From contig CACYGB010000010.1 in assembly GCA_902773895.1 (NCBI GenBank), forward strand, positions 24,582 through 67,172: a DNA stretch of 42,591 nt. Reading direction: 5' to 3'. A program made the position numbers and the translations under genes. The first letter of the stretch is position 1; each line of letters begins with the position of its first letter. The notes beneath the pieces were generated by a model, which worked only from the letters and a program-made list of their open reading frames with translations, had not been told where the DNA came from and did no database searches. The stretch is from an uncultured Eubacteriales bacterium. GTDB lineage: Bacteria > Bacillota > Clostridia > Christensenellales > Aristaeellaceae. Below are positions 1-22,069 of the stretch, piece by piece.

Positions 1-771
1 GCGCCAGCCGCATTTCCGCCGCCGATACGCTTTTCCCGTTCAGCAGCAGCGTCACCGCCCGGCCGCTTTCGCCCCGTTCCCCCACGGAAACGGTGTCGAT
101 GCCCCGCAGGCCCGGCAGCCCGGCCTCCTCCGCCGCGCGGATCACCTGCTCCGCGGAAAAGGACGTGCGCCACGCCCGGGCGTCCTCCGGGGCGTCGGCG
201 CTGTCCAGTCCCTCCACCGAACGGGCGTAGCCCGGCTCCTCCTTTTCGTAGTGCAGCCCTTCCCCGGCCCGGGCCGTGACCCCGCCGGAATAGGCGTGGA
301 ACCAGGCGCAGGGCAGCTGTCCCCCATAGGACAGCACCAGCCCCCGGGTTTCCTGCACGGCCTGCTCGATGCGCTCGTTCACCCCGGTGGCGTCATACGC
401 CTGGGCCTCCTCCACGTCGGTGGAAATATCGGCGCTGGGGTACCGGCTTTCCTTTTCCGCGCAGAATTCCAGCACGAAGGTGCGGGCCAGGCCTGGGCCT
501 TCAGCGCCTCCAGGGCGTTTTTCATTTCCCCGGCCAGCACCCCTTTCAGGCAGGTTTCCAGGTCCATGACACGGTTTTCCTCGTCATCCGTCACGTACAC
601 CGTCAGCTCCGGCACGCCGTCGGCGCTGCGGCGCAGCCTGTCCGGCAAAGCGGGCGCTTTCCCGGCCCGCTGGGTTTCCCGCAGCGTCGTTTCCTCCGTC
701 CCTTTGGCGGCGCAGCCGCACAGCAGCAGGGCGCACAGCGCCAGGCAGAAAAACAGCCTGATTTTCCGCAT
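1..771 (-). pseudogene. spoIID: SpoIID-like stage II sporulation protein, frameshifted and cut by the window edge
   Basis: SpoIID is a lytic transglycosylase that trims peptidoglycan during forespore engulfment. Start is the ATG at 771 with a purine-rich AAGGGGGG site upstream. Residues 1-25 form a hydrophobic signal/anchor with a possible lipobox (LCGC). The SpoIID/LytB core follows: LKGVLAGEM, which carries the expected catalytic Glu, then EALKAQA. Immediately after KAQA, at about 487-492, the reading frame breaks. One missing base (a gcc-ctg read as gcctg) restores ARTFVLEF and an open frame to the left edge containing AWFHAYSGGVTAR and LLLNGKSVSAAEMRLA, all typical of the family. The mapped part is about 257 residues of a family usually near 340. 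Whether the frameshift is genuine or a sequencing error cannot be told here; the yqfC/yqfD remnant shows the same type of lesion. Confidence 0.82.
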
Positions 772-917
772 AAAAAACCCCCCTTCACGGCACTTCGCTT
801 GGCCCAAACGGGCCTGTGCCATGCAGGGGGAAAATTCACCAGGCAAAAAGCGTTTCATCGGAAACCGCGGTCAATCAATCGGGCCGTTTTCCGGAGCTTC
901 GCCCGTCAGCGTGTTGA

Positions 918-2561
918 TCAGGATTCGGAATCGGTGCCCAGGTTGGCGGCGGTATCATCCTCGCCATCCAGCACCAGCTGCAGCCGGGCCAGGGTCTGGG
1001 TGCCCACCACGCCGTCTTCCTTGATGCCCATGTAGCGCTGGAAGGCGATCACGGCGGCGGCCGTCTTGGGGCCGTACTTGCCGTCGTCCTCGCCGGAGGC
1101 CAGGAAGCCGGCCTGGATCAGCATCTGCTGCAGCTTCTGCACCTGGATACCGCGGCTGCCTCTGCGCAGCTTGGTGTTGATGGCGCCCACGTAGGACTTC
1201 TTGGCGTCCACTTCTTCGGGCTCCGCGTCTTCCGCGGTCAGCAGGTAACGGATCACGATCCAGGTTTCGGTGCCCACAATGCCGTCCACCTTCAGGCCGT
1301 AGTCCTTCTGCAGCTTCATCACGGCCGCGGCGGTGCTTTCGCCGAATTTGCCGTCGCCCGCATCCAGCAGATAGCCGGCGGACTTCAGCTTCATCTGGGC
1401 GTAGGACACTTCTTCGCCCTTGGAGCCCACCTTCAGGGTGTTGCCCAGGTAAGCGTCGTATTCGGTGCTCTTTTCATAAGCGTCCCGGTCATCCAGGGAA
1501 GCCATGCCGGTGGGCCACAGATGGCGGCGCACCAGGGTGCCGAAAATGCCGTCTTCCGTCAGCTTGTTGGCCTTTTCCACCTTTTTCACGGCGTTGGCGG
1601 TGGCGGTGTCATAATAGCCGCGGGTATACCGGCCGGACAGGTAGTTCTTGCTGGCCAGCTTCATCTGCAGGATCAGCACGTCGTAGCCGCGGTTGCCGGC
1701 GCGCAGGGTGCGCTTGGGATACGCCAGGCCCACATTCGCGGGATGATCGACGTCCACGCCGTCAATATCGCCAATGGCTTCCGCGAACTTCTGCAGGGTC
1801 TTCTGGGTGCTGGCGCCGGCCTTGCCGTCCACGGGCAGGCCCACAGCCGCCTGGAATTCCCGCACGGCGCGGGCCACGTTGGCGCCGTACACGCCGTCGA
1901 TCTTGCCGGCATAGAACAGGGATTTGCGCAGCATCAGCTGCAGTTCCTCCACCTGGGAGCCGCTGCTGCCGGTGGCCAGGGTGTAGATGGGCTTGATCTT
2001 ATCGGTGGCCTTCACCACGTTTTCGGTGTCGTACAGCATATTCCAGGTTTTGGCGCCCACCTTGCCGTCGGCGGTCAGGCCGTTGCGGCTCTGGAACTTT
2101 TTCACGGCCGCTTCGGTGTCGGACCCGAAATTGCCGTCCACCGCGCCGGTGAAATAGCCGTAGGTGGTCAGCAGGTTCTGCAGCTCCATCACTTCGCCGC
2201 CGGTGGTGCCTACCACCAGGCTGCCGTTGTCACTTACGCCCTGGGTTTCGCCGGAGGCTTCGATGACCTTGTCGGATTTGAGCACCTTCAGGGTCTTTTC
2301 GCCGATGGCGCCGTCCACCTTCAGGCCGTTGCGGGCCTGGAATTTGCGCACGGCATTCACCATGCCGCTGCCATATTTGCCGTCAATGGGGCCGCTGTAA
2401 TAACCGTACAGCTTCAAAAGCTCCTGGGCTTCTTTCACGGCGTCGCCCTGGGACCCGCGCACCATGCTGCCGTTGGCAGACAGGCCCGTGGTCTTGGCCA
2501 GGCCGGCCGCCGGCACCATCAGCGCCAGCGCCAGCAATAACGCAACGATTCGTTTCAACAT
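918..2561 (-). CDS. Secreted protein with six peptidoglycan-binding (PG_binding_1) repeats
   Basis: Predicted 547-residue exported protein. The ATG at 2561 follows an AGAGGAGGT site at good spacing, and the first ~25 residues are a classical signal peptide ending VPAAGLAK. The rest is six consecutive PG_binding_1 modules of about 65-75 residues, recognisable from repeated features: RGSxGxxVxxLQ, an L..GYYSGPIDGKYG-like stretch, AVxxFQxxNGLxVDG and a closing GxxT. No amidase, NlpC/P60, YkuD or other catalytic domain is present, so it probably coats or cross-links the wall, or targets partners to it, rather than cutting it. Module 4 is the most diverged. The tail is acidic (DGEDDTAANLGTDSES). 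Its upstream region has an extended -10 promoter and several GTAA-type half-sites. Confidence 0.9.
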   Translation of the reverse strand: MLKRIVALLLALALMVPAAGLAKTTGLSANGSMVRGSQGDAVKEAQELLKLYGYYSGPIDGKYGSGMVNAVRKFQARNGLKVDGAIGEKTLKVLKSDKVIEASGETQGVSDNGSLVVGTTGGEVMELQNLLTTYGYFTGAVDGNFGSDTEAAVKKFQSRNGLTADGKVGAKTWNMLYDTENVVKATDKIKPIYTLATGSSGSQVEELQLMLRKSLFYAGKIDGVYGANVARAVREFQAAVGLPVDGKAGASTQKTLQKFAEAIGDIDGVDVDHPANVGLAYPKRTLRAGNRGYDVLILQMKLASKNYLSGRYTRGYYDTATANAVKKVEKANKLTEDGIFGTLVRRHLWPTGMASLDDRDAYEKSTEYDAYLGNTLKVGSKGEEVSYAQMKLKSAGYLLDAGDGKFGESTAAAVMKLQKDYGLKVDGIVGTETWIVIRYLLTAEDAEPEEVDAKKSYVGAINTKLRRGSRGIQVQKLQQMLIQAGFLASGEDDGKYGPKTAAAVIAFQRYMGIKEDGVVGTQTLARLQLVLDGEDDTAANLGTDSES

Positions 2562-2623
2562 AACAGGGACCTCCTCTCGTCGGATGCGGTCGGCAAGAAA
2601 AATGCTTCCCGCATTACGGGAAC

Positions 2624-2634
2624 ATTGTACCACA
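2624..2634 (-). promoter_or_regulatory. Extended -10 promoter of the peptidoglycan-binding protein gene
   Basis: On the minus strand TGTGG directly precedes TACAAT (2629-2624), giving an extended -10 (TGn-TACAAT) about 60 bases upstream of the start codon. The -35 position is poor. The 299-base gap 2562-2860 holds no gene. It is comparatively AT-rich and carries several GTAA half-sites: TGTAAT 2685-2690, TGTAAA 2694-2699, the inverted repeat GGTAA-cat-TTACC 2718-2730, and TGTAAC-N5-CGTAAC 2820-2836. Confidence 0.5.
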
Positions 2635-2860
2635 ATCCCCGGAAAATTCCTATTGAAGAATTGTTGCAAAACGCCGAATTTCCCTGTAATAACTGTAAAC
2701 AATGGCCGGGCTTTTTCGGTAACATTTACCAAATTCCCTTCCACCAAGGGTTGTGGACCGGCGATCCGGCCATGCCAAATGAAGGGGGTCAAAGGCTCTT
2801 CAAAATGGAAAAACAAGGATGTAACTTTCGCGTAACAAATGGACAGCGGTCTATTTCCCG

Positions 2861-3267
2861 TCACATCGCCGCGTGGCTTTCAGCGGGCGGAACGCGGCTG
2901 ATGATCATGCGGCCCGCGCTGGTCTGCAGCACGGTGGTCACTTCCACCGCCACGGTGCCGCCCACGCACCGCCGCCCGTTTTCCACCACCACCATGGTGC
3001 CGTCCTCCAGGCAGCCCACGCCCTGGCCCGGCTCCTTGCCTTCCCGGATCACGTGCACCCGCATGTCCTCCCCGGGCGTCACCACCGGGCGCAGCGCCCC
3101 GGCCAGCCCGTCCCCATCAGCAATCCGTAAAGCAAAAGCGCGCACAAGGAAGCGGCCCGTCCCCCCGGCAGCAGACGCAGCGGCTGCATCAGCAGCGCCG
3201 ACAGGACCGCACCGGCAAACAGGCCGCCAAAAGCATACGGACGGGAATAGAACGAAAAACGCTCCAT
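2861..3267 (-). pseudogene. yacL: YacL-type membrane PIN/TRAM protein lacking its PIN domain
   Basis: Intact YacL-family proteins have N-terminal membrane helices, a PIN nuclease domain and a C-terminal TRAM RNA-binding domain. Here the start at 3267 is well formed (CAGGAGG then ATG, MERFSFYSRPY) and two membrane segments follow (AFGGLFAGAVLSALL and SLCALLLYGLLMGTG). At about 3108-3120 the sequence jumps, out of frame, straight into the end of the protein: LRPVVTPGEDMRVHVIREGK, GQGVGCLEDGTMVVVENG and VLQTSAGRMIISR, a textbook TRAM domain. The remaining membrane helices and the whole PIN domain, on the order of 200 residues, are missing and the two pieces are in different frames. It lies just downstream of radA, as in the radA-disA-yacL order of many Firmicutes; disA is absent. 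A genuine deletion or an assembly collapse are both possible. Confidence 0.8.
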
Positions 3268-3354
3268 CTTCGTGATCTTCCTCCTGATTGAATTCATCCT
3301 CCATAAGGATGCGCAGGTCCGCCCGCTTCCATGCGCCGGAGGATGAAAACGCCG

Positions 3355-4737
3355 TCAGGAAGAAGGCAGCAGATCCAGCACCGCCATGGCCTGGGCCACC
3401 GTATCGACCCCGTGCAGGGACACGCCCTCCGGCGCCTTCAGGTGCCGGGCGCTGTCCCGGGGGCAAAGGATGTGGGTAAAGCCCAGCCGCTGACATTCGG
3501 TGACCCGGCGCTCCAGCTGGGAAATGCCGCGCACTTCGCCGGCCAGGCCCACTTCGCCCATCACGGCCCAGTCACCGGGCACAGGCCGGTCGGCGTAGGA
3601 CGAGGCCACCGCCATGCAGAACGCCAGGTCCGCCGCCGGCTCGTTGAGGGACAGGCCGCCGGCCACGTTGATGTAGGCGTCCCGGTTGTACATTTTCAGC
3701 CGGGCGCGCTTTTCCATCACCGCCAGCAGCAGCATCACGCGGGACGTGTCGAAGCCGTCCACCGTGCGCCGGGGAACGGCCAGGAAGGACTGGGTCACCA
3801 GCGCCTGGATGTCCACCAGCATGGGCCGGCTGCCCTCGATGCCGCAGAAAACGCAGCTGCCGCTGGCCCCCTTGGCCCGCTGGGACAGCAATGTTTCGCT
3901 GGCGTTGAGCACCGCCTTCATGCCGGCGGAGGTCATTTCAAAAATCCCCAGCTCGTTCACCGAGCCGAAGCGGTTTTTCGCCGCCCGCAGCAGGCGGTAT
4001 TCGTGCTGGTGGTCCCCTTCAAAGTACAGCACCACATCCACCATGTGCTCCAGCACCCGGGGCCCCGCCAGGGACCCTTCCTTGGTGACGTGGCCCACCA
4101 GGAAAATGGCGCAGCCGGTGGTTTTGGCGTAGCGCATCAGGATCGACGCGCTCTCCCGCACCTGGCTCACACTGCCCGGGGCGCTGCCCATTTCGGGGCG
4201 GTACATGGTCTGGATGGAGTCGATGACGCAAAAATCCGGCTGGATGTCCCGCAGCTTTTCCTCCACCGCGTCCATGGCGTTTTCCGTCAGCACAATCATA
4301 GAGCTGCCCGCGGCGGAAAGGCGCTGGGCCCGCAGCTTGATCTGCCGGGCGCTTTCCTCGCCGCTGACGTACAGCACCCGCTTCCCCGTGGACGCCAGGT
4401 GATTGCACACCTGCAGCAGCAGGGTGGATTTGCCGATGCCGGGGTCGCCCCCCACCAGGATCAGCGCGCCTTCCACGATGCCGCCGCCCAGCACCCGGTC
4501 CAATTCCGGCAGCCCCGAGGGCGTGTACACCTGGCCGGCCGTTTCAATATCCTTCATGGCCCGGGCCGTGTCGCCGGTGCCGCCCTGGCGCTTGTACGCC
4601 TTGGGCGCCGCCTCCTCCGGCTGGGCCAGGATCTCCTCCAGCGTGTTCCACGCGCCGCACTCCGGGCATTTGCCCATCCAGCGGGGCGTTTCATAGCCGC
4701 AGGCGTTACATTGGAAGCTGCTTTTCTTCTTGGGCAC
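3355..4737 (-). CDS. radA: DNA repair protein RadA
   Basis: RadA (Sms) is a RecA-like ATPase that drives branch migration of recombination intermediates. A GTG start at 4737 is chosen because AAAGGAGG lies at ideal distance and residue 1 then leads directly into PKKKSSF and the zinc finger (Cys10, 13, 24, 27: CxxC-x10-CxxC). This gives 460 residues, the usual family length; the open frame upstream of it does not look like RadA. Walker A GGDPGIGKSTLL, a Walker B-like FCVIDS, the RadA-specific KNRFG motif (AAKNRFGSVNELGIFEM) and a C-terminal Lon-like domain (NVAGGLSLNEPAADLA) are all present. It appears intact. The yacL remnant follows on the same strand. Confidence 0.97.
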   Translation of the reverse strand: MPKKKSSFQCNACGYETPRWMGKCPECGAWNTLEEILAQPEEAAPKAYKRQGGTGDTARAMKDIETAGQVYTPSGLPELDRVLGGGIVEGALILVGGDPGIGKSTLLLQVCNHLASTGKRVLYVSGEESARQIKLRAQRLSAAGSSMIVLTENAMDAVEEKLRDIQPDFCVIDSIQTMYRPEMGSAPGSVSQVRESASILMRYAKTTGCAIFLVGHVTKEGSLAGPRVLEHMVDVVLYFEGDHQHEYRLLRAAKNRFGSVNELGIFEMTSAGMKAVLNASETLLSQRAKGASGSCVFCGIEGSRPMLVDIQALVTQSFLAVPRRTVDGFDTSRVMLLLAVMEKRARLKMYNRDAYINVAGGLSLNEPAADLAFCMAVASSYADRPVPGDWAVMGEVGLAGEVRGISQLERRVTECQRLGFTHILCPRDSARHLKAPEGVSLHGVDTVAQAMAVLDLLPSS

Positions 4738-4945
4738 GGTATCCTCCTTTGGCAGGGCCTGTCCCTGCCTGTATGGTATCATCATCGGCCCGGCAAAGCC
4801 ATGGGAACCTTTGCTGAAGCCTGTCGAACGCTCCAAAAATCCTTCGTCAAAAAAGCCCAAATTCCTGCATCCCGCGTTTTTTTCTGCCTTCGGGGACAAA
4901 AAACGGTTTTTCCCGCGTAAATTTTCCGGAACCGGCTTTTTCGCA

Positions 4946-4974
4946 TTGCGAAATGGGGTTTTTTCATATATAAT
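4946..4974 (+). promoter_or_regulatory. Sigma-A-type promoter for the metallophosphoesterase-ppk operon
   Basis: TTGCGA (4946-4951), a 17-base spacer and a perfect TATAAT (4969-4974), ending 42 bases before the start codon at 5017. The surrounding 4738-5016 interval is non-coding and holds the divergent upstream regions of radA and of this operon. Confidence 0.7.
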
Positions 4975-5016
4975 AAGAATTCAGCGATTCGATGACGGAA
5001 CCGGAAAGGAGCCTGC

Positions 5017-6093
5017 ATGAAAAGGTATCGGGATCCTCTGTTTGCCGAAGCGCCCCGGAAGCACACAACGCTGGTGTTCCTGGTGATGGTGCTGACGATC
5101 CTTTTGTCCACGGTGCTGGTGCTGAACCACATCAACAACAGCCGGGTGAACCTGGTCACCCAGTCGGTGACGGTGCCGGCCCTGGCGTCGGACATGAACA
5201 ATTTCCGCATCCTGCATATCAGCGATCTGCACGGCCGGTTTTTCGGCGCGCACCAGGAGCGGCTTCAATTGGCGCTGAGCCAGGCCAAATACGACATCGT
5301 GGTGGTGACCGGCGATATTACCGGCCGGGACGGAAACTGCGACGCGTTCCTGGCGCTGCTGGATTTATTTGACGCCAAGACCCCGGTGTATTTCATCCCC
5401 GGGGACGAGGACCCGTCCCCCATCCTGGCCACGCCCCACGCCGGCAAATCCGCCAAGGCGGAATACATCCAGGCCGCGGAAGCTAAGGGCGCCGTTTACC
5501 TGGACGCGCCCATCCGCATTTCCTTCAGCCGCAACGCCATTTGGCTGTGGCCGGAAAGCCTGTACACCCTGGACCTGGACAGCAGCGAAGCCTCCGTGGC
5601 CACCAGGCAGGAGGAACTGAAAAACGAGCCCAAATCGAAAGAACGCACCGCCATGGTGCAGGCCGCCGCGTACCGGCAGGATCAATTGGCCCGCATCCGG
5701 GCGGCCCGGCGCATCACGAAATCCAGCGACATTCACATCGCCGTCACCCATCATCCCCTGTCCCTGGACGCCCTGACCACCCTGCGGGAATAGACGGACA
5801 GCGAAAACGACGCGTACGTTTCCTCCGTTTCCCTGGTGCTGGCCGGGCATTACAACGGCGGCCAATGGCGGCTGCCGTTCCTGGGCGCGGTGAAGGTGCC
5901 TGCCTCCGCCGGCAAGGGCAGCGGCTGGTTCCCCGGCGATATGGGGGTCGTGGGCCTGAGTTCCTACCAGGGCATTCCCCAGTACATCAGCCCGGGCCTG
6001 GGCGCCTCCAACGCCATCGGTCTGCCGGCCTTCCGCCTGTTCAACACCCCGCAGATCACCCAGATCACCCTGACCACCCGCATGACAGAATAA
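5017..6093 (+). pseudogene. Membrane-anchored calcineurin-like metallophosphoesterase with an in-frame amber stop
   Basis: A GGAAAGGAG site precedes the ATG at 5017. Residues 17-37 form one membrane anchor, so the enzyme domain would lie outside the membrane. Metallophosphoesterase motifs appear in order: LHISDLHG (Asp70, His72), VVTGDITG (Asp100), a GNH[DE] position that reads GDED (129-132), and VTHHPLS. A single TAG at 5791-5793 then interrupts the frame, which continues without any shift to 6093 and includes the last motif as AGHYNGG, where the family has GHxH. The total would be 358 residues. Both the GNH and GHxH motifs have lost key residues, so activity was probably already weak or altered before the nonsense change. 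It could be a CAG-to-TAG point mutation, a sequencing error or suppressed readthrough. It is the first gene of an operon with ppk. Confidence 0.8.
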
Positions 6094-6139
6094 AGCAATC
6101 CGAAAGAATAAAACAATCCGAAAAGGATGGGATTCGTTT

Positions 6140-8200
6140 ATGGCCAAGAAGTATGACGTTTACAACCGGGAACTGAGCTGGCTGCAATTCAACCGCCGCG
6201 TGCTGGAAGAAGCGGCCAACCCCGACAATCCGCTGCTGGAAAAGGGCAAATTCCTGTCCATCTGCTCCAGCAACCTGGATGAGTTCTTCATGGTGCGCGT
6301 GGGCGCGCTGTACCGGGATCTGTCCGCAGGAGGAAAAAGCACCGATCCTGCCGGCATGACGCCCCGGCAGCAGCTGGACGCCATTTTCCCCGCAGTGCGC
6401 GCCCAGGTGAAGCGGCAGTACGAACTGCTGAACACCGAATACCTGCCCGCGTTGGCCCAGGCCGGCATCCACCTGCTGCGGCCGGAGGAACTGCGCGCGG
6501 AACAGCGCGACTGGCTGGAGCAGTTTTTCGACGCCCAGCTGCATCCGCTGCTGACCCCCCGGGCCATTGACGACAAGCGTCCCTTCCCCCTGCTGGCCGC
6601 CAAGCATCTGCACCTGGCGCTGCTGCTGCCTTCCCGGGTGCGCACCGGCGCGCCGCGCATGGCGCTGATCCCGCTGCCCACTTCCCTTCCCCGGGTCACC
6701 TTGCTGCCCATGGGCGCAGGCCGCGCCCGGGGTGTGCTGCTGGAAGACGTGGTGGCCCTGTTTGCCCACAAGCTGTTCGGCGGCGCCAAGCCCATTGCCG
6801 CCATGCCCTTCCGCATCACCAGGAACACCGACTTCCTGTACAACGACAGCGACGCGGACGCCCTGATCATCGAAATGCGCAAGAACCTGAAAAAGCGCAA
6901 GTGGGGCCGCGTGGTGCGCATGGAAGTGCCCGTGGGCGGCGACGCCCGGCTGGTGGCCCGGCTGAAAAAATACCTGGACGTGGCGGAGGAAGGCATTTTC
7001 GCCGTGCCCGGCCCCCTGAACCTGGATTTCTTCATGAAGCAATTGTCCTCCCTGGAGGGGTTCGACGATTTGCGTTTCCTGCCCTTTACCCCCCGCATCG
7101 ACCCGCGCCTGAAGGCCGAGGGCAGCATTTTCCGCGCCATCCGCGGCGGCGACATCCTGCTGAACCATCCCTACGACAGCTTTGACCCCGTGGTGCGCTT
7201 CATCTGCGAAGCGGCCGAGGATTCAAACGTGCTGGCCATCAAGCAGACGCTGTACCGCGTCAGCGGCAAAAGCCCCATCGTGGCCGCCCTGATCCGCGCC
7301 GCCCAAAGCGGCAAGGAAGTGACGGCGATGGTGGAGGTGCGCGCCCGGTTTGACGAAGAAAACAACATCAACTGGTGCCTGGCGCTGGAAAAGGCCGGCT
7401 GCCATGTGTTCTACGGCGTGCCCAAGCTGAAAACCCACAGCAAGATCACCCTGGTGATCCGCCGGGAGGAAACGGGCCTGCGCCGCTATGTGCATCTGGC
7501 CACCGGCAACTACAACGACGTCACCGCCAGGCTGTACACCGATATGGGCCTGTTTACCTGCGACGAGGCCATCGGCCGGGACGCCGGCGCCTTCTTCAAC
7601 ACCGTCACCAGCTACGGCGAAGCGGAGCCCATGGAAAAGCTGGTCAGCGCTCCCGTTTACCTGCGGGACCGGCTGAAGCAATTGATCAAGCGGGAACGCC
7701 ACAACGCAGAAAACGGCCTGCCGGCCCGGATCACCGCCAAGATGAATTCCCTGGTGGACCCCAAAATCATCCACCAGCTGTACAAGGCCGCCGACGCCGG
7801 CGTGGAAATCGACCTGATCGTGCGCGGCATCTGCTGCCTGAAAACCGGCGGCCGGGAAAACCTGCGGGTGCGGTCCATCGTGGGCAGGATGCTGGAGCAT
7901 ACCCGCGCCTTCGTGTTTGAAAACGGCGGCGAAAAGGAAGTGTACCTGTCCTCCGCCGACTGGATGCCAAGGAACCTGGACAAGCGGGTGGAATTGATGT
8001 TCCCGGTGGAGGACCCGGCTCTGCAGGACCGCGTCATCGCCTCCCTGAAGGATGAACTGAACGACAACATGAAAGCCTGGGAAATGAAAAAGAGCGGCAA
8101 ATACAAGCGTGTGCCCCGGGAAGCGCCCCTGCTCAACAGCCAGGAAGCCCGCATCCTGGGCCCGGCCGCCCTGCAGTGGGAGGAAGAGGTGCAGGCATGA
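6140..8200 (+). CDS. ppk1: Polyphosphate kinase
   Basis: Reversibly polymerises the gamma-phosphate of ATP into polyphosphate. At 686 residues it matches the PPK1 family. The N domain begins YDVYNRELSWLQFNRRVLEEA, a PPK1 hallmark. The autophosphorylated and catalytic histidines are visible as THSK (His433) and YVHLATGNYND (His452), 19 residues apart as in the characterised E. coli enzyme. VEVRARFDEENNINW and TARLYTDMGLFT complete the active-site region, and the C-terminal RGICCLKTG is present. It starts 46 bases after the metallophosphoesterase, preceded by a small direct repeat (AACAATCCGAAA-like), and overlaps the next gene by an ATGA, so the three are likely one transcript. Confidence 0.98.
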   Translation: MAKKYDVYNRELSWLQFNRRVLEEAANPDNPLLEKGKFLSICSSNLDEFFMVRVGALYRDLSAGGKSTDPAGMTPRQQLDAIFPAVRAQVKRQYELLNTEYLPALAQAGIHLLRPEELRAEQRDWLEQFFDAQLHPLLTPRAIDDKRPFPLLAAKHLHLALLLPSRVRTGAPRMALIPLPTSLPRVTLLPMGAGRARGVLLEDVVALFAHKLFGGAKPIAAMPFRITRNTDFLYNDSDADALIIEMRKNLKKRKWGRVVRMEVPVGGDARLVARLKKYLDVAEEGIFAVPGPLNLDFFMKQLSSLEGFDDLRFLPFTPRIDPRLKAEGSIFRAIRGGDILLNHPYDSFDPVVRFICEAAEDSNVLAIKQTLYRVSGKSPIVAALIRAAQSGKEVTAMVEVRARFDEENNINWCLALEKAGCHVFYGVPKLKTHSKITLVIRREETGLRRYVHLATGNYNDVTARLYTDMGLFTCDEAIGRDAGAFFNTVTSYGEAEPMEKLVSAPVYLRDRLKQLIKRERHNAENGLPARITAKMNSLVDPKIIHQLYKAADAGVEIDLIVRGICCLKTGGRENLRVRSIVGRMLEHTRAFVFENGGEKEVYLSSADWMPRNLDKRVELMFPVEDPALQDRVIASLKDELNDNMKAWEMKKSGKYKRVPREAPLLNSQEARILGPAALQWEEEVQA

Positions 8201-13512: not shown

Positions 13513-13524
13513 GCTGGGCCCTCC

Positions 13525-14892
13525 TTACTTTTTCAGGATCTTGCTGTACACCCGTTTTTCGTTGTACATCATGAACAGCACGCCGCCCAGCACGCACACG
13601 CAGGCCGCGGCGATGGCGATGATGCGGTAGCCCAGGCCGATATCCTGGCGGATGGTGCCCAGGGAGGTGACCAGCAGCATGGCCACGGCCTGGCCCATTT
13701 TCATGGAGAAGGTGCGGGCCGCGTAGAACATGCCGCTGCGGTTTTCGTTGGTTTCGATTTCATCGCACTCGGCGATATCGGCCACTACCGCCTGGGGCAG
13801 GATGCCGAAAATGGCCATGGCCGGCGCCGCCAGGACGCACAGGATGTAGCCCTGGATTTCCGGCGCAACCGGCAGGAAGGTGCCCAGGGTGGCGGTATAG
13901 GCAAAGGCCACGGTGAAAATGCCGAAGGCGATCAGGATCAGCTTCTTTTTGCCGAATTTGGGGGTCAGCTTGCTCACCAGGGGGTAGAACAGCACGCTCA
14001 GCGCCGTCATGCCCACGAAATACAGGGTGCTCATGCCCTCTTCCAGCTTCAGCAGGGAGGTGACGAAATAAAGCATGGCGTTCTGGAACATGGTAATGCC
14101 CAGGAAATACACGATATCCGACGCCACAAAGATGCGGAAATCCTTGTTGCGGAAGGTGGCCGCCAGGGATTTCATGGCGGTGGACTGGCTGGGCGCAGCG
14201 TGCACGTAATCCGTTTCCTTGATGGTGAATACAGGCACGAACATGCACACCAGGCCGATCAGGCTCATCACCGTGAAGGTGACCCGGATAGCCATTACCC
14301 GGCTGCCCAGGGGGCCCTCCAGCATGCCCCAGATCATCGGCGCCATGTACGCCACCGCCATGCCGGCAATGAACGTGAAGGAAATGGAGGTGGAAATGCT
14401 CATGCGGGTTTTCTGGTCGGTGCCCAGTTCCGGGATCAGGGCGTTATAGGGCGTGCAGTACATGGTCATGAACAGGTAGAACAGCGTCAGCATCACAAAC
14501 AGGAACGCCGCGTTGATCCAGCTTTCGCCGTTGACGGGGCTCCAGAAGGTGAAGATGGTGGCCAGGGAGAAGGGAATGGCCGCCGCCTTCATGAAGGGGA
14601 TGCGCCGGCCCGCCTTGCTCCTGCACCGGTCGGACATGGAGGCGATCCAGGGATCGGTAACCGCGTCAAAGATACGGCCGAACCAGGTGATGGCGCCCAG
14701 AATAGTCAAAATGCCGAAAATCACCAGGCCCTGGGGAATGAAAATGGGCTGGCCCGCCTGCTGGGTGGCCAGATCAGGCTGGTAATAGCTGACCAGGAAG
14801 CTGGAAATCAGCGCGCTGAGGATGGACCAGCCGAACTGGCCGATGGCAAAGCACCATACCTTCCCCTTGGTAAGTTTTTTGGTTTCGCTCAT
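13525..14892 (-). CDS. GPH-family (MelB-like) sugar:cation symporter
   Basis: 455-residue twelve-helix transporter of the glycoside-pentoside-hexuronide:cation symporter family. The ATG at 14892 follows GGGAGGAG. The diagnostic loop GRIFDAVTDPWIASMSDR-x-RSKAGRR lies between helices 2 and 3, and the central CTPYNALIPEL is also typical. The family usually moves melibiose, xylosides, glucuronides or similar sugars with Na+ or H+; the substrate cannot be read from sequence. First gene of a two-gene operon with the alpha/beta hydrolase. Confidence 0.93.
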   Translation of the reverse strand: MSETKKLTKGKVWCFAIGQFGWSILSALISSFLVSYYQPDLATQQAGQPIFIPQGLVIFGILTILGAITWFGRIFDAVTDPWIASMSDRCRSKAGRRIPFMKAAAIPFSLATIFTFWSPVNGESWINAAFLFVMLTLFYLFMTMYCTPYNALIPELGTDQKTRMSISTSISFTFIAGMAVAYMAPMIWGMLEGPLGSRVMAIRVTFTVMSLIGLVCMFVPVFTIKETDYVHAAPSQSTAMKSLAATFRNKDFRIFVASDIVYFLGITMFQNAMLYFVTSLLKLEEGMSTLYFVGMTALSVLFYPLVSKLTPKFGKKKLILIAFGIFTVAFAYTATLGTFLPVAPEIQGYILCVLAAPAMAIFGILPQAVVADIAECDEIETNENRSGMFYAARTFSMKMGQAVAMLLVTSLGTIRQDIGLGYRIIAIAAACVCVLGGVLFMMYNEKRVYSKILKK

Positions 14893-14946
14893 AAGAACAT
14901 ACTCCTCCCGTTAGGCGGTTGCCTTTCATTTGTTATTGCTGGAAGC

Positions 14947-14975
14947 ATTTTACCACGATTTCCATGCGGCTGCAA
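14947..14975 (-). promoter_or_regulatory. Promoter of the GPH transporter-hydrolase operon
   Basis: Minus strand: TTGCAG (14975-14970), 17-base spacer, then TAAAAT (14952-14947) preceded by TGG, an extended -10. It sits 55 bases before the start codon, in the gap after the preceding membrane-protein gene. Confidence 0.65.
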
Positions 14976-14981
14976 GAAGGA

Positions 14982-16094
14982 TCAGCCCCGGTTCGATCGG
15001 AGCTTCTTCAGGAGAGCAGTCAGGGCAGCTTCATCCAGTTTATCCACGTCAAACACGTTTTCCAGCCTGATCCCCAGCTGCCTGCAGGCCGCAAAAATCT
15101 CCGTGCCGCGGAAATCCCCCACAGCTTCGGCCAGGGCTTCCCTGCCCCGGGGAAGCGGTTCTTCAGCGGCCGTCTTTTGCGCGGCAGGCTTTGCCGGCGC
15201 AAATTGCACCGGCGCGCCGAAATCCACCTCCACCCGGCGGGCGCCTTTCCGGATCTCCGCCATATCGTAGCTGATCCCGCGGCCCTTCTGGCTGGGAATG
15301 GCAAAAATATCCGCGTACCGGCAGGTGTCCGCCGCGTAGTCCACATACACCACGTCCAGGAAGTTGGCGCGCTTGTCGTCCTCGGAAACCATACCGGCCA
15401 TGGCGGCCAGGGGACGGTCCAGCAGCGGGCTGCCCGCGAAAGCCTCGTCCAGCACGGCCCGCTTCATGCGCATGAACAGCTCCCTGTCGAACCGGAAGCC
15501 CGGCCGGGTGGGCGCTTCCTCCGTGCCGCGGCAAATCCTGTTGGTCAGTCCCGGTCCCCCCACCACGTAAGCAAAGGGCACGGGCGGATCCTGCGGACGG
15601 GACTGATAACAGAAAACGCAGATTGCCTTTCCGCCGTCCTTCTTATTCAGTTTCCACATTTTGATGACCTCTTTTATCATGATGATCCCATTGACCGCAA
15701 GGCCCAGGGACGCGGCAAACAGGGCCAGGGCGTCCACGGTATAAGGCAGGCGGATGGGGATTTCACCCCGAACCAGGCAGTAAAACCCGAACCCTCCCAA
15801 CAGCACCGCCAGGACCGCCAGCACCAGATACCGCACGCCCTTCCGGGATGGGCAGATCCTTTGGCATGTAGTAAAAAGAAACCGCCACAAGCCGTAAACC
15901 AGGGCCATGTTCAGCAGGCCCAGCAATCCGTCGTCGATCAGGGTGTTTCCTGTCAGGAAGGAGGCGACTTTTTCCGGCAGTGCTTTCTCCGCCCAGCCCA
16001 GGACGGCGATCATCGCCAGGTTCCAGAAATACAGCGCCAGCAGGATGCCGGCAAGCTCCAGCACCATGACCGCCCACGCGCACAAGCGCTTCAT
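14982..16094 (-). CDS. Unknown protein with four N-terminal membrane helices and a large soluble part
   Basis: Family not recognised. The ATG at 16094 follows GGGGAGGAAG and gives 370 residues. Hydrophobic segments lie near residues 5-30, 48-72, 88-105 and 117-143. The C-terminal ~220 residues are soluble and, after the last helix, contain a KAICVFCYQSR stretch with two cysteines, then VVGGPGLTNRICRG and alternating beta-rich sequence ending in LKKLRSNRG. The tail LDEAALTALLKKLRS resembles short-domain (SHOCT-like) C termini, but this is weak. It begins 45 bases after the era stop codon and could be the last gene of the era operon. Confidence 0.75.
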   Translation of the reverse strand: MKRLCAWAVMVLELAGILLALYFWNLAMIAVLGWAEKALPEKVASFLTGNTLIDDGLLGLLNMALVYGLWRFLFTTCQRICPSRKGVRYLVLAVLAVLLGGFGFYCLVRGEIPIRLPYTVDALALFAASLGLAVNGIIMIKEVIKMWKLNKKDGGKAICVFCYQSRPQDPPVPFAYVVGGPGLTNRICRGTEEAPTRPGFRFDRELFMRMKRAVLDEAFAGSPLLDRPLAAMAGMVSEDDKRANFLDVVYVDYAADTCRYADIFAIPSQKGRGISYDMAEIRKGARRVEVDFGAPVQFAPAKPAAQKTAAEEPLPRGREALAEAVGDFRGTEIFAACRQLGIRLENVFDVDKLDEAALTALLKKLRSNRG

Positions 16095-16139
16095 GATCTT
16101 CCTCCCCTTTTCCGGTTCTGAAACAGCCACGGCCTCCGG

Positions 16140-17039
16140 TCACCGGTTCTGCACGTAGCCCAGGGTTTTCAGGTCCTCGGCGCTGTCCCGCCAGCCGGGA
16201 CGCACCTTCACCCACAATTGCAGGTTCACGTGCATGCCCAGCAATTGCTCGATGTCCGTCCGGGCTTCCGCCCCGATCTTTTGCAGCATGCTGCCCTTTT
16301 TGCCGATGATGATGCCCTTGTGGGAATCCCGCTCGCAATAGATGGTGGCGTCGATTTCCATGAAATTGTCGTTCAGCTTTTTCATGGCCATCATTTCCAC
16401 GCCGATGCCGTGGGGCACCTCGTCCCGCAGGTTGCGCAGGGCCTTTTCCCGGATCAGCTCGGCGCAGATGTCCCTTTCCGGCTGATCGGTGAGCATGTCG
16501 TCGGGAAAATACTGGGGGCCGACGGGCAGATGGGATGCCAGCTCCTGCTTCAACTGCTCCACGCCGTCGCCGGTCCTGGCGCTGACGGGCACGATGCCGT
16601 CGTATTTCGCGTCCTTGAAGGAGTCGATGATGCCCAGCAATTTTGACGGCTCCACCAGGTCGATCTTGTTGAGCACCAGCAGCTTGTACACCTTTTTATG
16701 GCTCATTTCCTCCACGATACTGCGGTCGTGGGGCCCGATGGCGGTGACGTCCACCAGCACCAGCAGGGCGTCGATGCCCTCCATGGCTTCCTCAATGGAC
16801 TGCACCATGAATTCCCCCAGCTTGGTGCGGGGACGGTGGATGCCCGGCGTATCCACAAACACGATCTGGCATTTTTCGCCGCCCATCACGCCCATCACCC
16901 GGTTCCGGGTGGTTTGGGGCCTGGCGGAGGTGATGGCCACCTTTTCGCCCACCAGGGTGTTCAGCAGGGTGGATTTGCCCACGTTGGGCCGCCCTACGAT
17001 GGTGGCAAAGCCGGAATGAAAATCACTTTTGGTCTGCAT
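16140..17039 (-). CDS. era: GTPase Era
   Basis: Ribosome-assembly GTPase that binds the 3' end of 16S rRNA and 30S precursors. 299 residues, the normal length. G1 GRPNVGKSTLLN (about 17-28), G2 region SARPQTTRNR, G3 DTPGIH, G4 NKIDLV and G5 SARTGDG are followed by the KH domain with GIIIGKKGSMLQKIG. An AAAGGAAC site precedes the ATG. It is 17 bases downstream of the ybeY::cdd fusion, in the standard phoH-pgpH-ybeY-(cdd)-era order. Confidence 0.98.
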   Translation of the reverse strand: MQTKSDFHSGFATIVGRPNVGKSTLLNTLVGEKVAITSARPQTTRNRVMGVMGGEKCQIVFVDTPGIHRPRTKLGEFMVQSIEEAMEGIDALLVLVDVTAIGPHDRSIVEEMSHKKVYKLLVLNKIDLVEPSKLLGIIDSFKDAKYDGIVPVSARTGDGVEQLKQELASHLPVGPQYFPDDMLTDQPERDICAELIREKALRNLRDEVPHGIGVEMMAMKKLNDNFMEIDATIYCERDSHKGIIIGKKGSMLQKIGAEARTDIEQLLGMHVNLQLWVKVRPGWRDSAEDLKTLGYVQNR

Positions 17040-17056
17040 ACGCTTGTTCCTTTTCT

Positions 17057-17953
17057 TTATTCTTTGCCCAGGAATTCCAGGGTGCCCTGCTTGGGGCCGA
17101 AGCCGTGGGGCAGCAATTCCGGCAGCGTGGCCTCGTCCCGTTCGTCCCCGCAGGCCACGATCACCCGCAGGTCCGGGGCGAACTCGTTCAGCGCCTGGCG
17201 GCAGATACCGCAGGGCCAGGGCATGGATTTTTCCGCCGCGATGGCGATCACGGTGAATTCCGTCACCCCTTCGCTGACGGCCTTGAACAGCGCCGTGCGC
17301 TCCGCGCAGTTGGCGGCGCCGTAGGAGCCGTTTTCGATGTTGCAGCCCTTGAACACCCGGCCGTCCTTGGAAAGCAGGGCCGCCCCAACCTTAAAGTGGG
17401 AGTAAGGAGAGTAAGAAAACTGCATGGCCTCTTTGGCCAGGGCGATCAATTCCTCGTCGGTGATCCGGTTTACGCCGGCCCGGTTCAGTGCTTTTTCTTC
17501 CATGGCGCGCATCCTTTCCTTGTCTGCTTCCCGCATATGGTCGTATCCCATCAGGTGAAATAAAGCGTGGGCCGTCAGGTAGCCCATTTCCCGCTGCAGG
17601 CTGTGGCCGTATTCGGCGGCCTGCTCCCGGGCGCGCTCCAGGGAAAGGATAATGTCCCCCAGGAAGCACAGGCCCGTTTCATCCCGCTCCCGCAGCAGCT
17701 TTTCCGGACAATGGCCCAGGGTGTTCTGCGGTTTGGCGTGGGTGGAGGGAAACGACAGCACGTCCGTCGCCCGGTCCGTCTGCCGGTATTCCCGGTTGAT
17801 GCGCCGGATCGTTTCGTCGTCGGTGACGCGCACCTGGGCGTACACCGGCAGCGTCACGCCCTCCGCCTCCACGCAGGCCCGGGCGATCCTTTGCAGCATT
17901 TCCTCCGCCCCCGGCAGCGCTTCCCCGTCCCACTCCAGCATCAGGCGGATCAT
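17057..17953 (-). CDS. YbeY endoribonuclease fused to cytidine deaminase
   Basis: One continuous 298-residue frame carries two enzymes. Residues 1-155 are YbeY, the zinc endoribonuclease of rRNA maturation and quality control, with RATDVLSFP, GDIILS and the zinc motif H129-x3-H133-x5-H139 (HALFHLMGYDH). Residues 160-298 are a homotetramer-type cytidine deaminase (pyrimidine salvage) with YSHFKVGAAL, the CAE motif (Cys216, Glu218) and PCGICRQ (Cys248, Cys251), all catalytic and zinc residues kept. The start codon overlaps the pgpH stop as ATGA. In many Firmicutes ybeY, dgkA, cdd and era are separate consecutive genes; here dgkA is missing and the other two are joined without a stop, so the fusion probably arose by loss of dgkA. 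The frame is clean and both halves look functional. Confidence 0.95.
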   Translation of the reverse strand: MIRLMLEWDGEALPGAEEMLQRIARACVEAEGVTLPVYAQVRVTDDETIRRINREYRQTDRATDVLSFPSTHAKPQNTLGHCPEKLLRERDETGLCFLGDIILSLERAREQAAEYGHSLQREMGYLTAHALFHLMGYDHMREADKERMRAMEEKALNRAGVNRITDEELIALAKEAMQFSYSPYSHFKVGAALLSKDGRVFKGCNIENGSYGAANCAERTALFKAVSEGVTEFTVIAIAAEKSMPWPCGICRQALNEFAPDLRVIVACGDERDEATLPELLPHGFGPKQGTLEFLGKE

Positions 17954-20328
17954 GGCGCATCCTCCCCGTCCGGCGTTTCCTCCTGCTTCACGGGCAGCGG
18001 CTCGATGTTGACCAGTTCGTCGATCTCCACCGGCTTGATGGTGGGCGGCACTTCAATTTCCACCGGCATATCCGGCGCCTGGGGCATCACCACAGGCATG
18101 GGGTCCCCGGCCTGCAGTTCCACCACGTTCACGCCTTCCGGCGTGGGCTCCGGCACCGTCAGGCTTTCCTCTTCCGCCTCCACCGGATGGATCACCCGCT
18201 GCTTGGGCTCCTCCACGTCCGGGTATTCGATGCGCTCATGGAACACGCCCACCAGCACCGTGGTGGCCGCGGCGCAGATTTTGTCAATGTCCCGCAGCGT
18301 CAGGGGACAGTCGCTCAGTTGGCCGTCCTCCAGTTTCCCCCGCACCAGCTTCACGATGAAATCCTCGATGCCCTCGGTGGTGGGGTTTTTCATGGTGCGC
18401 ACGGCGGCCTCGATGGTGTCGCACAGCAGCACGATGGCGCCTTCCTTGGTGCGGGGCGGCCGGCCGTCGTAGCGGAAGGCGTCAATATCCACCGGATTGC
18501 CGTTGGCCTGCTGCAGCGCCTTGTGGTAAAAGTACATCACCGGCGTATCGCCGTGGTGCTCGCCAATGATGGTCTGCACCGCCTGGGGCAGCCGGTAGGC
18601 CTTGGCCAGGGCCACGCCGTCCCGGGTATGGGCGGTGATGATGGCGGCGGACACATGGGGATCGGTATGGTCATGGGCGTTAACGCCGCCCAGCTGGTTT
18701 TCCGTAAAATATGAGGGGCGCTTCAGCTTGCCGATGTCATGGTACAAGCCGCCCACGCGGGCCAAAAGCGGGTTGGCGCCCACCGCTTCCGCCGCGGCCT
18801 CCGACAGATTGGACACGATGGTGGAGTGGTGATAGGTGCCCGGCGCTTCCAGCAGCAGCCTGCGCAGCAGCGGCTGGTTGGGGTTGGACAGTTCCAGCAG
18901 CTTCATGGGCGTAGGCAGATTGAACACCATTTCCAGCAGCGGCTGCAGCCCGATGCACAGAAGCGTCGCCAGCACAGAGCCGCCGGCCTTCCACAGCCCG
19001 TTTTCGATAAAGCCGTGCAGGTCGCTGGCCGTCATCAGGCCCAGGGCCAGGATCACCAGGAAATCCACCGCCGCGCCGGTCAGGCCGCTGATCATCATCC
19101 ACGTGCGGCTGACCTTCACGTTGGCCATCAGCGCCGCCGCGGTGCCGGACAGCAGGCCGGAAATAATGAGCAGCACCATGGTTTCAGTATATTCCTGGCT
19201 GCTGCCGGCAGCCAGCGCGGCCACCAGCACCGTCAGCGCCGCGCTGCAGATCATGCCCGTGCGGCGGCCCAGCAGCGACGTCATCAGCAAGGGGCACAGA
19301 AGCAGCGGCGACAGGTACACGTTCACCAGCCTGGCCGCCATGCAAAGGCCCAGGGAAATCAGCAGCACCGTGAACATCAGGATCAGCATGGCGGTGTCGT
19401 CCAGCACGCTGTTTTCCCGGCGGCGCAGCATCAGCAGCATGCACCCCATCGTCAGGATCACCAGCAGCGCCGCGCCCAGATACATGGACAGGTCCACTTC
19501 GCCGCCGGAAAGCAGCCCCAGGGTGGACAGCATGGCCAGCTGGTTGGCGCTGATGCGCCCTTCGCCGCGCACCACGATGTTCTGCCCCTGCTTGTACACC
19601 ACCGGTTCCACCGCTTCCCGGGCCGCTTCCCGGGCTGCTTCCGTGGCCTCCTGGTCAATGACCATATTGGCCTGGATGCAGGCGGACAGCACCGCCGGCA
19701 CGATGTTCTGCCCCAGGGGCAGGGAGATGCGGAAATCCACGATCTGGCGGATGCTGGCGGCGGCGGCGGCCTCCTGGCCCTCTGTCACATAGCCCAGCAT
19801 GGCACTTTGCACCGCGGCATACACCAGGGAATAAGCGTCCTCCAATTCCTCCTGGGTGGAATGCAGCAGGCTGGTCAGCTGGTAATCCCGCAGTGACAGA
19901 AGCGTCAGCATATCCCGGGCGTACTGCATCTCTTCCTTGGTATACAGCCGGGTGGCCGATTGGTCCGGCAGCGTTTCGCCGTACTGGCGCACGGCCCGCA
20001 GCTGGGTAAACACCTGATCCAAATGGGAAAGCACCTGCTCCGTCACGCCTTCCTGATAGCGATAGGTGGGCGTGACCTGGGCGGCCGCTTCCTCGCGCTT
20101 TTGCTGGGTGCTGATTTCGTCCACCACGTCCTTGGTGGCGGCGATGGTGCTGGTGGGCACCATGCCCACCTGCAGGTTATAGCGCACCGGCACGATGGCC
20201 ACCACGAACATGGCCAGCAGCAGAGTGATGCCCAGCACCGAAATCAGCAGTCTGAGCGCCCCGGGGGAACGCAGGTAAGCCCCCGCGCTTTTGCGGCGCT
20301 TCGCGGGCTTTTTGCCTTCCATGCTCAT
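17950..20328 (-). CDS. pgpH: PgpH-type HD-domain c-di-AMP phosphodiesterase, membrane bound
   Basis: 792 residues. Cleaves cyclic-di-AMP in characterised relatives. Order: short basic cytoplasmic N terminus, helix (about 25-47), large extracytoplasmic 7TMR-HDED domain (to about 275), a block of six to seven membrane helices (about 280-475), then the HD domain with HHSTIVSNLSEAAAEAVGAN, YHDIGK, HDHTDPHVSAAII and GEHHG. After the HD domain there is an unusual proline- and acid-rich tail of about 85 residues (from VIHPVEAEEE to the end), absent from typical homologues. The start (20328, or ATG 20322 two codons on) follows AAAGGAGG and overlaps the phoH stop. Co-transcribed with phoH, ybeY::cdd and era. 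Confidence 0.95.
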   Translation of the reverse strand: MSMEGKKPAKRRKSAGAYLRSPGALRLLISVLGITLLLAMFVVAIVPVRYNLQVGMVPTSTIAATKDVVDEISTQQKREEAAAQVTPTYRYQEGVTEQVLSHLDQVFTQLRAVRQYGETLPDQSATRLYTKEEMQYARDMLTLLSLRDYQLTSLLHSTQEELEDAYSLVYAAVQSAMLGYVTEGQEAAAAASIRQIVDFRISLPLGQNIVPAVLSACIQANMVIDQEATEAAREAAREAVEPVVYKQGQNIVVRGEGRISANQLAMLSTLGLLSGGEVDLSMYLGAALLVILTMGCMLLMLRRRENSVLDDTAMLILMFTVLLISLGLCMAARLVNVYLSPLLLCPLLMTSLLGRRTGMICSAALTVLVAALAAGSSQEYTETMVLLIISGLLSGTAAALMANVKVSRTWMMISGLTGAAVDFLVILALGLMTASDLHGFIENGLWKAGGSVLATLLCIGLQPLLEMVFNLPTPMKLLELSNPNQPLLRRLLLEAPGTYHHSTIVSNLSEAAAEAVGANPLLARVGGLYHDIGKLKRPSYFTENQLGGVNAHDHTDPHVSAAIITAHTRDGVALAKAYRLPQAVQTIIGEHHGDTPVMYFYHKALQQANGNPVDIDAFRYDGRPPRTKEGAIVLLCDTIEAAVRTMKNPTTEGIEDFIVKLVRGKLEDGQLSDCPLTLRDIDKICAAATTVLVGVFHERIEYPDVEEPKQRVIHPVEAEEESLTVPEPTPEGVNVVELQAGDPMPVVMPQAPDMPVEIEVPPTIKPVEIDELVNIEPLPVKQEETPDGEDAP

Positions 20329-21278
20329 GCTTCCTCCTTTGCTTCATACGCTTCGTAGGCCCGCACGATTTTCTGCACCAGCTCGTGGCGCACCACGTCC
20401 TTGGCCGTCAGTTCCACAATATGCACGCCTTCCACGCCCCGCAGCACCTCGACGGCCTCCATCAGGCCGCTCTTTTTGCCTTTGGGCAGGTCGATCTGGC
20501 TCACGTCCCCGGTCACGATGCACCGGGAGCCGGCGCCCAGGCGGGTCAGGAACATTTTCATTTGCTCCGGCGTGGTGTTCTGCGCTTCATCCAGGATGAT
20601 GAACGCGTCGCTCAGCGTGCGTCCCCGCATGAAGGCCAGGGGCGCCACCTCCAGCGTGCCCCGCTCCAGCAGGCGCTGGTAGCTTTCCACGCCCATGATT
20701 TCGTACAGCGCGTCGTACAGGGGCCGCAGGTACGGGTCCACCTTCTGGGTCATATCGCCCGGCAGGAAGCCCAGTCTTTCCCCTGCTTCCACGGCGGGCC
20801 TGGTCAGCACGATGCGCTCCACTTCCTTGTTTTTCAGTGCCACCACCGCCAGCGCCATGGCCAGGTACGTTTTGCCCGTGCCGGCAGGGCCTACGGCCAG
20901 CGTCAGTTCCCCGTCCCGCACAGCGTTCACGTATTCCCGCTGGCCCAGGGTTTTGCACTGGATCCGGCGGCCCCGGTGGGTTATGGCCACCACGTCGCCC
21001 AGGATCTCCTGGATCTCCTCCAGCCGGCCTTCCCGGGCCAGGGCCACGGCGTAGCGGATGCGGCTGGCATCGATGATTTCCCCGTGGCGCAGCATGTCGA
21101 TCATTTTGCCGATCACCTGCTCCGCCAGGGCCACGTCCTCCGCCGCCCCGTCGATTTTCAGTTCCTGGCCGCGCAGGGTGATGGACACGTTCAATTCCTG
21201 CTCCAGCACGGCCATGTGCCGGTCGTTCATGCCAAATAAAGTCATATAGGATTCCATGTTTTCAAGTGATAACAGCAA
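20325..21278 (-). CDS. phoH: PhoH-like ATPase
   Basis: About 317 residues. PhoH-family P-loop ATPase, probably acting on RNA alongside YbeY. N-terminal KH-like segment (LEQELNVSITLRGQELKIDG), then Walker A GPAGTGKTYLA, TRPAVEAGERLGFLPGDM, Walker B AFIILDEAQN and TGDVSQIDLP. The start is uncertain: an AAGGAG lies directly against an ATG at 21290 (no spacing), whereas a TTG at 21278 is 12 bases from it and yields LLLSLENMESY, which matches how homologues begin; TTG is preferred here. The stop overlaps the pgpH start. It lies just after the yqfC/yqfD remnant, in the usual order. Confidence 0.92.
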   Translation of the reverse strand: MLLSLENMESYMTLFGMNDRHMAVLEQELNVSITLRGQELKIDGAAEDVALAEQVIGKMIDMLRHGEIIDASRIRYAVALAREGRLEEIQEILGDVVAITHRGRRIQCKTLGQREYVNAVRDGELTLAVGPAGTGKTYLAMALAVVALKNKEVERIVLTRPAVEAGERLGFLPGDMTQKVDPYLRPLYDALYEIMGVESYQRLLERGTLEVAPLAFMRGRTLSDAFIILDEAQNTTPEQMKMFLTRLGAGSRCIVTGDVSQIDLPKGKKSGLMEAVEVLRGVEGVHIVELTAKDVVRHELVQKIVRAYEAYEAKEEA

Positions 21279-21306
21279 GCCCCAGCGCATCTCCTTAAAC
21301 GGCGGA

Positions 21307-22043
21307 TCATCCGCCCGCGTTTTTCCGGCATCGTCCGATGGAAACCACTGTTTCCCCCGCGGCCTCCACCACGATAGTATCCCCTTCTATCATACGGAAA
21401 TTAATCCATTTGTCAACTGTTTCCGCATTTTTCAGCCGTTCATTCAGCAGGCCGCCTGCTCCGCCTCCCGCAGCACCTGGGATGCGTCCCGCCGCTCCGT
21501 TTCCACCCGCGCTTCCGCATAAACTTCCCTTTGCAGCATCACCGGGAACCACACCCCTGCCACCGGCACGCGCCGGCACTGATAATCCCAGGTCAGGTAA
21601 TCCGGCGTATCCTTTGCCGTCCAGGAAAAAAGGGCGTTTCCAGCACATCCCGTTTGGTTTCCCGGCCGGTGGGCTCCGTCCGCCACCCCGTCAGCGGCAG
21701 CCGTACCCGGGCCAGCGTCCACACCCGGGCCGCCGCTTCGCCCCGGGCCTTCACGGCCTTCCCCATTTCCTGTCCTTCGATCAGCACCTGCCCGGCCCGG
21801 ACAAATTCGCCGATGTGATCTTTCCGCGGATCAGCAGATCCCGCACGCCGAACCACGCGATAACCAGGTTTTCCCCCGTGACTGCACACAGGCCCGCGCT
21901 GGTTCTTACCCGGACGCACCGGGTTTCATAGGAAACAGGCCGGCGTGCTGTTCGATCAGCAGTTCCTCCCGGCCGGTCAGCACCAGCCTGGGCGTATCGG
22001 AGCGCGTTTCCGGCGGTGCCAGGGACAGCAGATGCATGTTCAT
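21307..22043 (-). pseudogene. Collapsed yqfC-yqfD sporulation locus
   Basis: Pieces of two sporulation genes in successive frames. From 22043 (or ATG 22037): LAPPETRSDTPRLVLTGREE then LLIEQHAGLF is the start of YqfC. One base is missing in a T run near 21933, after which YETRCVRVRTSAGLCAVTGE and LVIAWFGVRDLLIRGK finish YqfC. At about 21800-21810 it runs directly into the C-terminal part of YqfD (EFVRAGQVLIEG, VKARGEAAARVW), so the first two-thirds of yqfD is absent. YqfD then suffers two more one-base losses: in a T run at 21626-21631 (restoring ETPFFSWTAKDTPDYLTWDY) and near 21450 (restoring LLNERLKNAETVDKW), and ends IEGDTIVVEAAGETVVSIGR. YqfC and YqfD are mother-cell proteins of spore formation. 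Location directly before phoH is standard. Confidence 0.8.
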
Positions 22044-22054
22044 CACCTCGGCCC

Positions 22055-22069
22055 ATTGTATGCCGCCGC
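22055..22069 (-). promoter_or_regulatory. Possible sigma-E-type -10 element before yqfC
   Basis: The minus strand reads CATACAAT (22062-22055), a full match to the CATACAnT -10 of mother-cell sigma-E promoters; a GCATTTC 15 bases upstream is an imperfect -35. yqfCD is a sigma-E operon in Bacillus. The element lies very close to the start codon (11 bases), which weakens the call. Confidence 0.3.

Follow-up and report, generated by a model that had tools for sequence, protein, structure and literature searches.

The lineage of the clostridial species considered here, an uncultured gut or rumen bacterium of the family Aristaeellaceae, has very probably lost endospore formation after its split from the other sampled members of its genus. 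The analysis concerns a stretch of 42,591 nucleotides (the window; positions 24,582 to 67,172 of contig CACYGB010000010.1, here C10, of assembly GCA_902773895.1), in which the sporulation genes spoIID, yqfC and yqfD are all damaged, and extends to the rest of the genome. The source draft genome (G000) amounts to 2.43 Mb at 84% completeness, in 137 contigs with an estimated contamination of 1.01%, as against 1.9-3.8 Mb in the 28 other genomes of the same genus (congeners) that formed the comparison set, which are 65-96% complete. Two sister genomes were used most closely: G011 (also L004; metagenome-assembled genome RGIG4910, from roe deer rumen), which is the nearest named relative by a PhoH scan (92%) and differs from the window at about 17% of bases, and G010, the second genome compared for gene order and codon positions.

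None of the dedicated sporulation genes examined is intact, each being broken, cut short, deleted or not found; the set leaves aside spoIIR, spoIIE, spoIIP, gpr and the genes for small acid-soluble spore proteins (SASP), and is not the 66-gene signature discussed below. The lesions are of differing kinds, lie on at least eight contigs and are concentrated in one pathway that is conserved in the congeners, and that pathway has therefore ceased to be maintained. In established accounts of sporulation no spore can form in the absence of Spo0A, SigF, SigE and SigG, and both points support the loss of sporulation. The congeners that carry the gene set probably form spores, judging from their gene content.

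Remnants of sporulation genes in the window and across the genome

A preliminary description of the window, made from its letters alone, had reported spoIID, yqfC and yqfD as broken. Reading in all frames, together with Pfam and tblastn searches, confirms this for each gene: spoIID and yqfC each change frame part-way, and only the last part of yqfD is left. In a piecewise scan, two pieces of spoIID lying in different frames match PF08486 consecutively, at positions 9-38 (below the Pfam cut-off) and 41-97 (above it), and the frame change falls between them, where that description had placed it. Likewise, tblastn with the sister gene (L159:302-1321) aligned residues 2-109 in one frame and 111-339 in another, the gene passing the window start and carrying on along C10. 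Congeners have two or three SpoIID-domain genes each; the broken, sporulation-type gene is the third here (the family scan reached its positions 41-97 only), and the other two, which are not sporulation genes, have open frames of 579 and 853 amino acids (aa) in this genome. The frame break described in yqfC is also borne out, with positions 1-18 (below cut-off) and 21-61 of PF07873 matched from two frames.

For yqfD, the sister protein aligned by tblastn over residues 210-382 of 383 only, in three frames at 21811-21316, and the YqfD family profile was reached only from position 210 onward. The 5' part of the gene is gone, the aligned blocks on either side being about 55 bases apart here versus about 720 in sister L004, and what remains falls 15 bases short of L004 and shows, in addition, contractions of one base and of seven bases. 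The N-terminal loss claimed earlier thus stands, together with one of the two further one-base contractions; the other measures seven bases in the alignment. With the sister YqfD as query, a full-length, stop-free single match was obtained in all 28 congeners, and only fragments in this genome. Open yqfC and yqfD accompany phoH in seven of the eight relatives whose phoH neighbourhoods were printed (L004-L010), and other genes stand there in L013.

The master regulator and the compartment sigma factors are lost in several ways. Canonical Spo0A (Spo0A_C above 130 bits) is found in 22 of the 28 congeners. The single partial match here, 41.5 bits on C8, might have been taken for a surviving Spo0A, but it belongs to a broken second Spo0A_C gene that has diverged, and that reading was dropped. 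On either side of the spo0A region on C37, gene order is collinear with G011; the 2,790 bases between the anchors in that sister are reduced to 731, and spo0A, which in G011 scores 293 bits against TIGR02875, is gone. At least 24 of the 28 congeners have a SigF-like factor, which scores 166-195 bits and stays under the family cut-off, and none is among the matches listed for this genome. C17 keeps both flanks of the corresponding region, towards dnaE and towards mnmE, with 161 bases in place of 1,204 in the sister, which removes the SigF-like gene and a SpoIIAB-like ATPase, a pair identified from position and weak matches.

SigE exceeds the family cut-off in all 28 congeners; in this genome only profile positions 184-232 were matched, and on C3 sigE survives next to an inverted block as 52 residues of its C-terminal end, which share 94% identity with G010. 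A SigG-type factor exceeds the cut-off in 27 of 28, compared with a match to profile positions 2-163 here. On C40 the sigG remnant is open over codons 1-190 of 260 (91% identity); unrelated sequence follows, and the last 70 codons are lacking. Of sigK, 56 residues of the C-terminal part remain on C22.

Elsewhere in the genus, sigK is split in two halves in several congeners, about 12.4 kb apart in G013 and about 8 kb apart in G016, and a large serine recombinase gene adjoins the 3' half in G013 (L178:2061-15052, contig C6 of that genome), an arrangement that we take to be a skin-like element. The SigK-like matches of three congeners (G005:C39, G015:C183 and G028:C10) each contain one in-frame stop.

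Other parts of the pathway are affected as well. Family scans found SpoIIIAE in 27 and SpoVAD in 26 of the 28 congeners and found neither in this genome. On C13, the 4,416 bases of the spoIIIA operon in G010 are reduced to 592, which retain 51 residues from the C terminus of SpoIIIAH and a fragment of SpoIIIAB that contains a stop. SpoIVA is present in 23 congeners, near full length in 22 of them, and is represented here by two damaged pieces. The piece on C89 (L140:1918-2479) has codons 1-100 and 201-287 in one frame, followed by unrelated sequence; the piece on C36 (L141:1-870) begins inside the gene at codon 210 and carries one in-frame stop. As would be expected from the loss proposed in the preliminary description, spo0A, sigE, the sigF-like gene, sigG, sigK and spoIVA are thus absent, deleted or fragmentary here, and most of the 28 congeners keep each. 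That description had called the loss recent. The loss itself is supported by deletions and remnants on several contigs, and "recent" holds only in the sense of since the split from the sister genomes, some 17% of bases away.

Neighbouring genes and codon-position constraint

To compare constraint among genes, changes unique to each of three branches (this genome, G011 and G010) were sorted into codon positions and tallied, with columns close to a gap or an N set aside. In five core remnants (spoIID, yqfC, yqfD, sigG and the C36 piece of spoIVA), the ratio of changes at positions 1 and 2 to those at position 3 was 0.64 on the branch of this genome, compared to 0.37 for G011 and 0.29 for G010 (p = 1e-6); on the branch of this genome ten control genes gave 0.35 (p = 6e-7 against the remnants). 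Taken individually, spoIID (0.90, p = 4e-5), sigG (0.40, p = 0.007) and spoIVA (0.50, p = 0.006) were relaxed. The ratio is below 1 in most remnants, and selection would therefore have been lost part-way along the branch. These results point to a stretch of this species' branch without selection and to spoIID as one of the earlier losses, a timing drawn from few sites.

The surroundings of the remnants are largely sound (Table 1). Ten of 12 non-sporulation loci of the window have one open frame over at least 96% of the sister protein (radA, era, ybeY::cdd, pgpH, phoH, an 87-aa gene, gltX, glnS, a TetR gene and a VanW gene); a small 117-aa locus is open in a single frame over 87%, and a PIN/TRAM-domain gene is broken. 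This count takes sister open reading frames (ORFs) away from sequence ends, the antisense row 22042-22392 and the end rows being left out. Outside the window, the genes beside the deletion on C17, encoding a ribosome hibernation factor, DnaE, a histidine kinase and MnmE, are open over 97-99%, and on C37 a glycosyltransferase gene (96%) and a DegV gene (98%) are open. The earlier statement that the adjacent housekeeping genes are clean holds for phoH, pgpH, ybeY::cdd, era, radA, gltX and glnS; it had not listed the broken PIN/TRAM gene beside radA. Its claim of decay biased towards sporulation genes is likewise retained as a bias, without exclusiveness.

Table 1. Positions of remnants and intact control genes in the window
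Feature	Position	Strand	State
spoIID remnant (sporulation-type)	1..770 (end approximate)	-	two frames, change near 487-492; 3' end beyond window
PIN/TRAM-domain gene remnant	2870..3267	-	PIN part missing; frame differs between N-terminal and TRAM parts
radA	3355..4899	-	intact neighbour, control
era	16140..17039	-	intact neighbour, control
ybeY::cdd fusion	17057..17953	-	intact neighbour, control
pgpH (7TM-HD hydrolase)	17950..20328	-	intact neighbour, control
phoH	20325..21290	-	intact neighbour, control
yqfD remnant	21316..21811	-	residues 210-382 of 383 of sister protein, three frames; 5' part deleted up to yqfC end
yqfC remnant	21790..22045 (approximate)	-	two frames, break near 21933
gltX	22489..24009	-	intact neighbour, control
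glnS	24078..25865	-	intact neighbour, control

Beyond glnS, the window encodes, side by side, two RCC1-repeat proteins of 704 and 487 aa (25958-29603, plus strand), which lie within about 4.5 kb absent from sister L004 at that place.

Weighing the probable loss of sporulation

Several observations weigh against the loss of sporulation or against single calls that contribute to it. The lesions were called in a single draft genome, 84% complete, from the assembly alone. Two non-sporulation genes are also broken, the PIN/TRAM gene of the window and a noc-like gene on C37. The absences of SpoVAD and SpoIIIAE from the family scan could reflect missing contigs, and the housekeeping factor SigA is likewise not among the matches listed in the sigma-factor scan of this genome. 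In comparison with G011, the flanks of spoIIIA are scattered over C22, C13 and C5; one contig holds both flanks only in comparison with G010. The ten controls are themselves slightly raised on this branch (0.35 versus 0.30 in G011 and 0.27 in G010, p = 0.009), MATE being the sole individually significant one, strongly raised though intact, and yqfC (p = 0.43) and yqfD (p = 0.87) show no significant relaxation when taken alone. Finally, the two spoIVA pieces are divergent, with 79% identity in their overlap, which is not easily explained by one clean genome.

This pair of spoIVA pieces reflects either a partial duplication or a mixed bin, and two SpoIVA genes in one genome were seen in none of the 28 congeners searched. 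A bin that mixes contigs of two related species, and hence presents a composite in place of the decay of one genome, is nevertheless very improbable given the contamination estimate of 1.01%, the fact that, apart from spoIVA, C36 and C89 contain separate portions of a single sister neighbourhood, and the key deletions on several other contigs. Both spoIVA pieces are damaged in addition to these deletions, and any mixture would therefore be one of two non-sporulating species.

If the organism does sporulate and its metagenome bin is poor, mistakes in sequencing or assembly could by themselves account for the small frame breaks of the window, which were read from the assembly of a fragmented, incomplete draft. 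However, the losses of hundreds to thousands of bases affect sporulation genes on separate contigs with open neighbours, random error would not raise changes at positions 1 and 2 in the pooled remnants relative to the controls, and the two unrelated SpoIID-domain genes are open. We regard error as very improbable as well. That a reduced or rewired developmental programme persists, comparable to the use of sporulation genes for offspring formation in Epulopiscium-type relatives, is scarcely conceivable: some frames are still open (e.g., sigG codons 1-190), but Spo0A and all four compartment sigma factors are missing or truncated, and the sigG remnant has lost its end.

The loss of endospore formation can be pictured as follows. 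Once sporulation had stopped paying, any early lesion would have made the remaining pathway useless, and the remaining genes would then have decayed independently through small indels, stops, internal deletions and rearrangements.

Genes decaying alongside and significance

Further genes that are intact in the sisters decay here together with the spore genes. The PIN/TRAM gene is intact in G010 and is not a known sporulation gene; it stands outside the codon-position count because only one sister copy was aligned. The noc/ParB-like gene on C37 (L166:2630-3452) is divided over two frames in this genome, whereas both G011 and G010 have it open, and it is relaxed (0.66, p = 0.002). On C8 (L003:4431-5552), the second Spo0A_C-domain regulator and an adjoining LysM protein are broken here and open in the sisters. 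The regulator gene is relaxed (1.16, p = 0.03); the LysM gene, whose product has weak SafA/SpoVID-like matches, shows no significant relaxation (p = 0.4). Next to the site of spo0A on C37, only the C-terminal part is kept of a gene for a 394-aa protein that has no Pfam or NCBIfam match. A 367-aa minus-strand ORF, also beside spo0A and apparently broken, was dropped as antisense because two overlying plus-strand ORFs are conserved and open here, save for a stop upstream of the likely start. It is possible, though doubtful, that the genes decaying in this way are unrecognised parts of the sporulation programme of the genus, and the 394-aa protein, the second Spo0A_C regulator, the LysM protein, the Noc-family protein and the PIN/TRAM protein are listed as candidates.

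Loss of sporulation is documented in gut Firmicutes, where Former-Spore-Formers mostly lack spo0A (Browne et al., 2021; PMC8340488). The present species resembles them in its apparent descent from spore formers and its lack of spo0A and most sporulation genes, and smaller-scale losses within families are described there too. Its relatives carry the set (from all 28 for YqfD and SigE to 22 for Spo0A), spo0A is deleted between kept neighbours, and none of the sporulation genes examined, a set distinct from the 66-gene signature, is intact. In contrast, that study scored presence or absence of 66 genes across human-gut families and tied loss to genome reduction, whereas the loss here falls within one genus, leaves many recognisable remnants and is read from gene content. 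Neither "pseudogene" nor "remnant" is a word used in that text; the broken frames or domain losses that define a pseudogene are found in spoIID, yqfC, yqfD, spoIVA, sigG, sigE, sigK and spoIIIAH.

Widely conserved sporulation genes include spo0A, the sigma factors, spoIIIA, spoIID, spoIVA, yqfC and yqfD (Galperin et al., 2012; PMC3533761). The asporogenous strains treated there likewise lack sigma factors, spoIIIA, spoIID and spoIVA, but keep spo0A, which is deleted here. Repeated loss in host-associated Firmicutes is also reported for Mycoplasmatales and related orders (PMC10868615), although across orders of the class Bacilli and not inside one Clostridia genus. In a study of how sporulation can be scored from metagenome bins, most Christensenellales bins of one data set were predicted to be non-sporulating (PMC12536801), a prediction at the level of the order. 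No account of this species was found in the literature searched, the accession not being among the search terms. The event is thus of a known kind, and the species is a new, well-preserved case that rests on one draft genome.

Loss of sporulation is usually inferred from absent genes, whereas here damaged remains and clean deletions lie inside conserved gene order. The remnants let the order of gene loss be asked, and they can serve to test software that scores sporulation in metagenome bins, where fragments can still count as matches. From them come, in addition, a few candidates for new sporulation genes, whose decay has accompanied that of the known ones. If shared decay does mark a shared programme, this genome would be a natural subtraction experiment for the sporulation genes of its genus.

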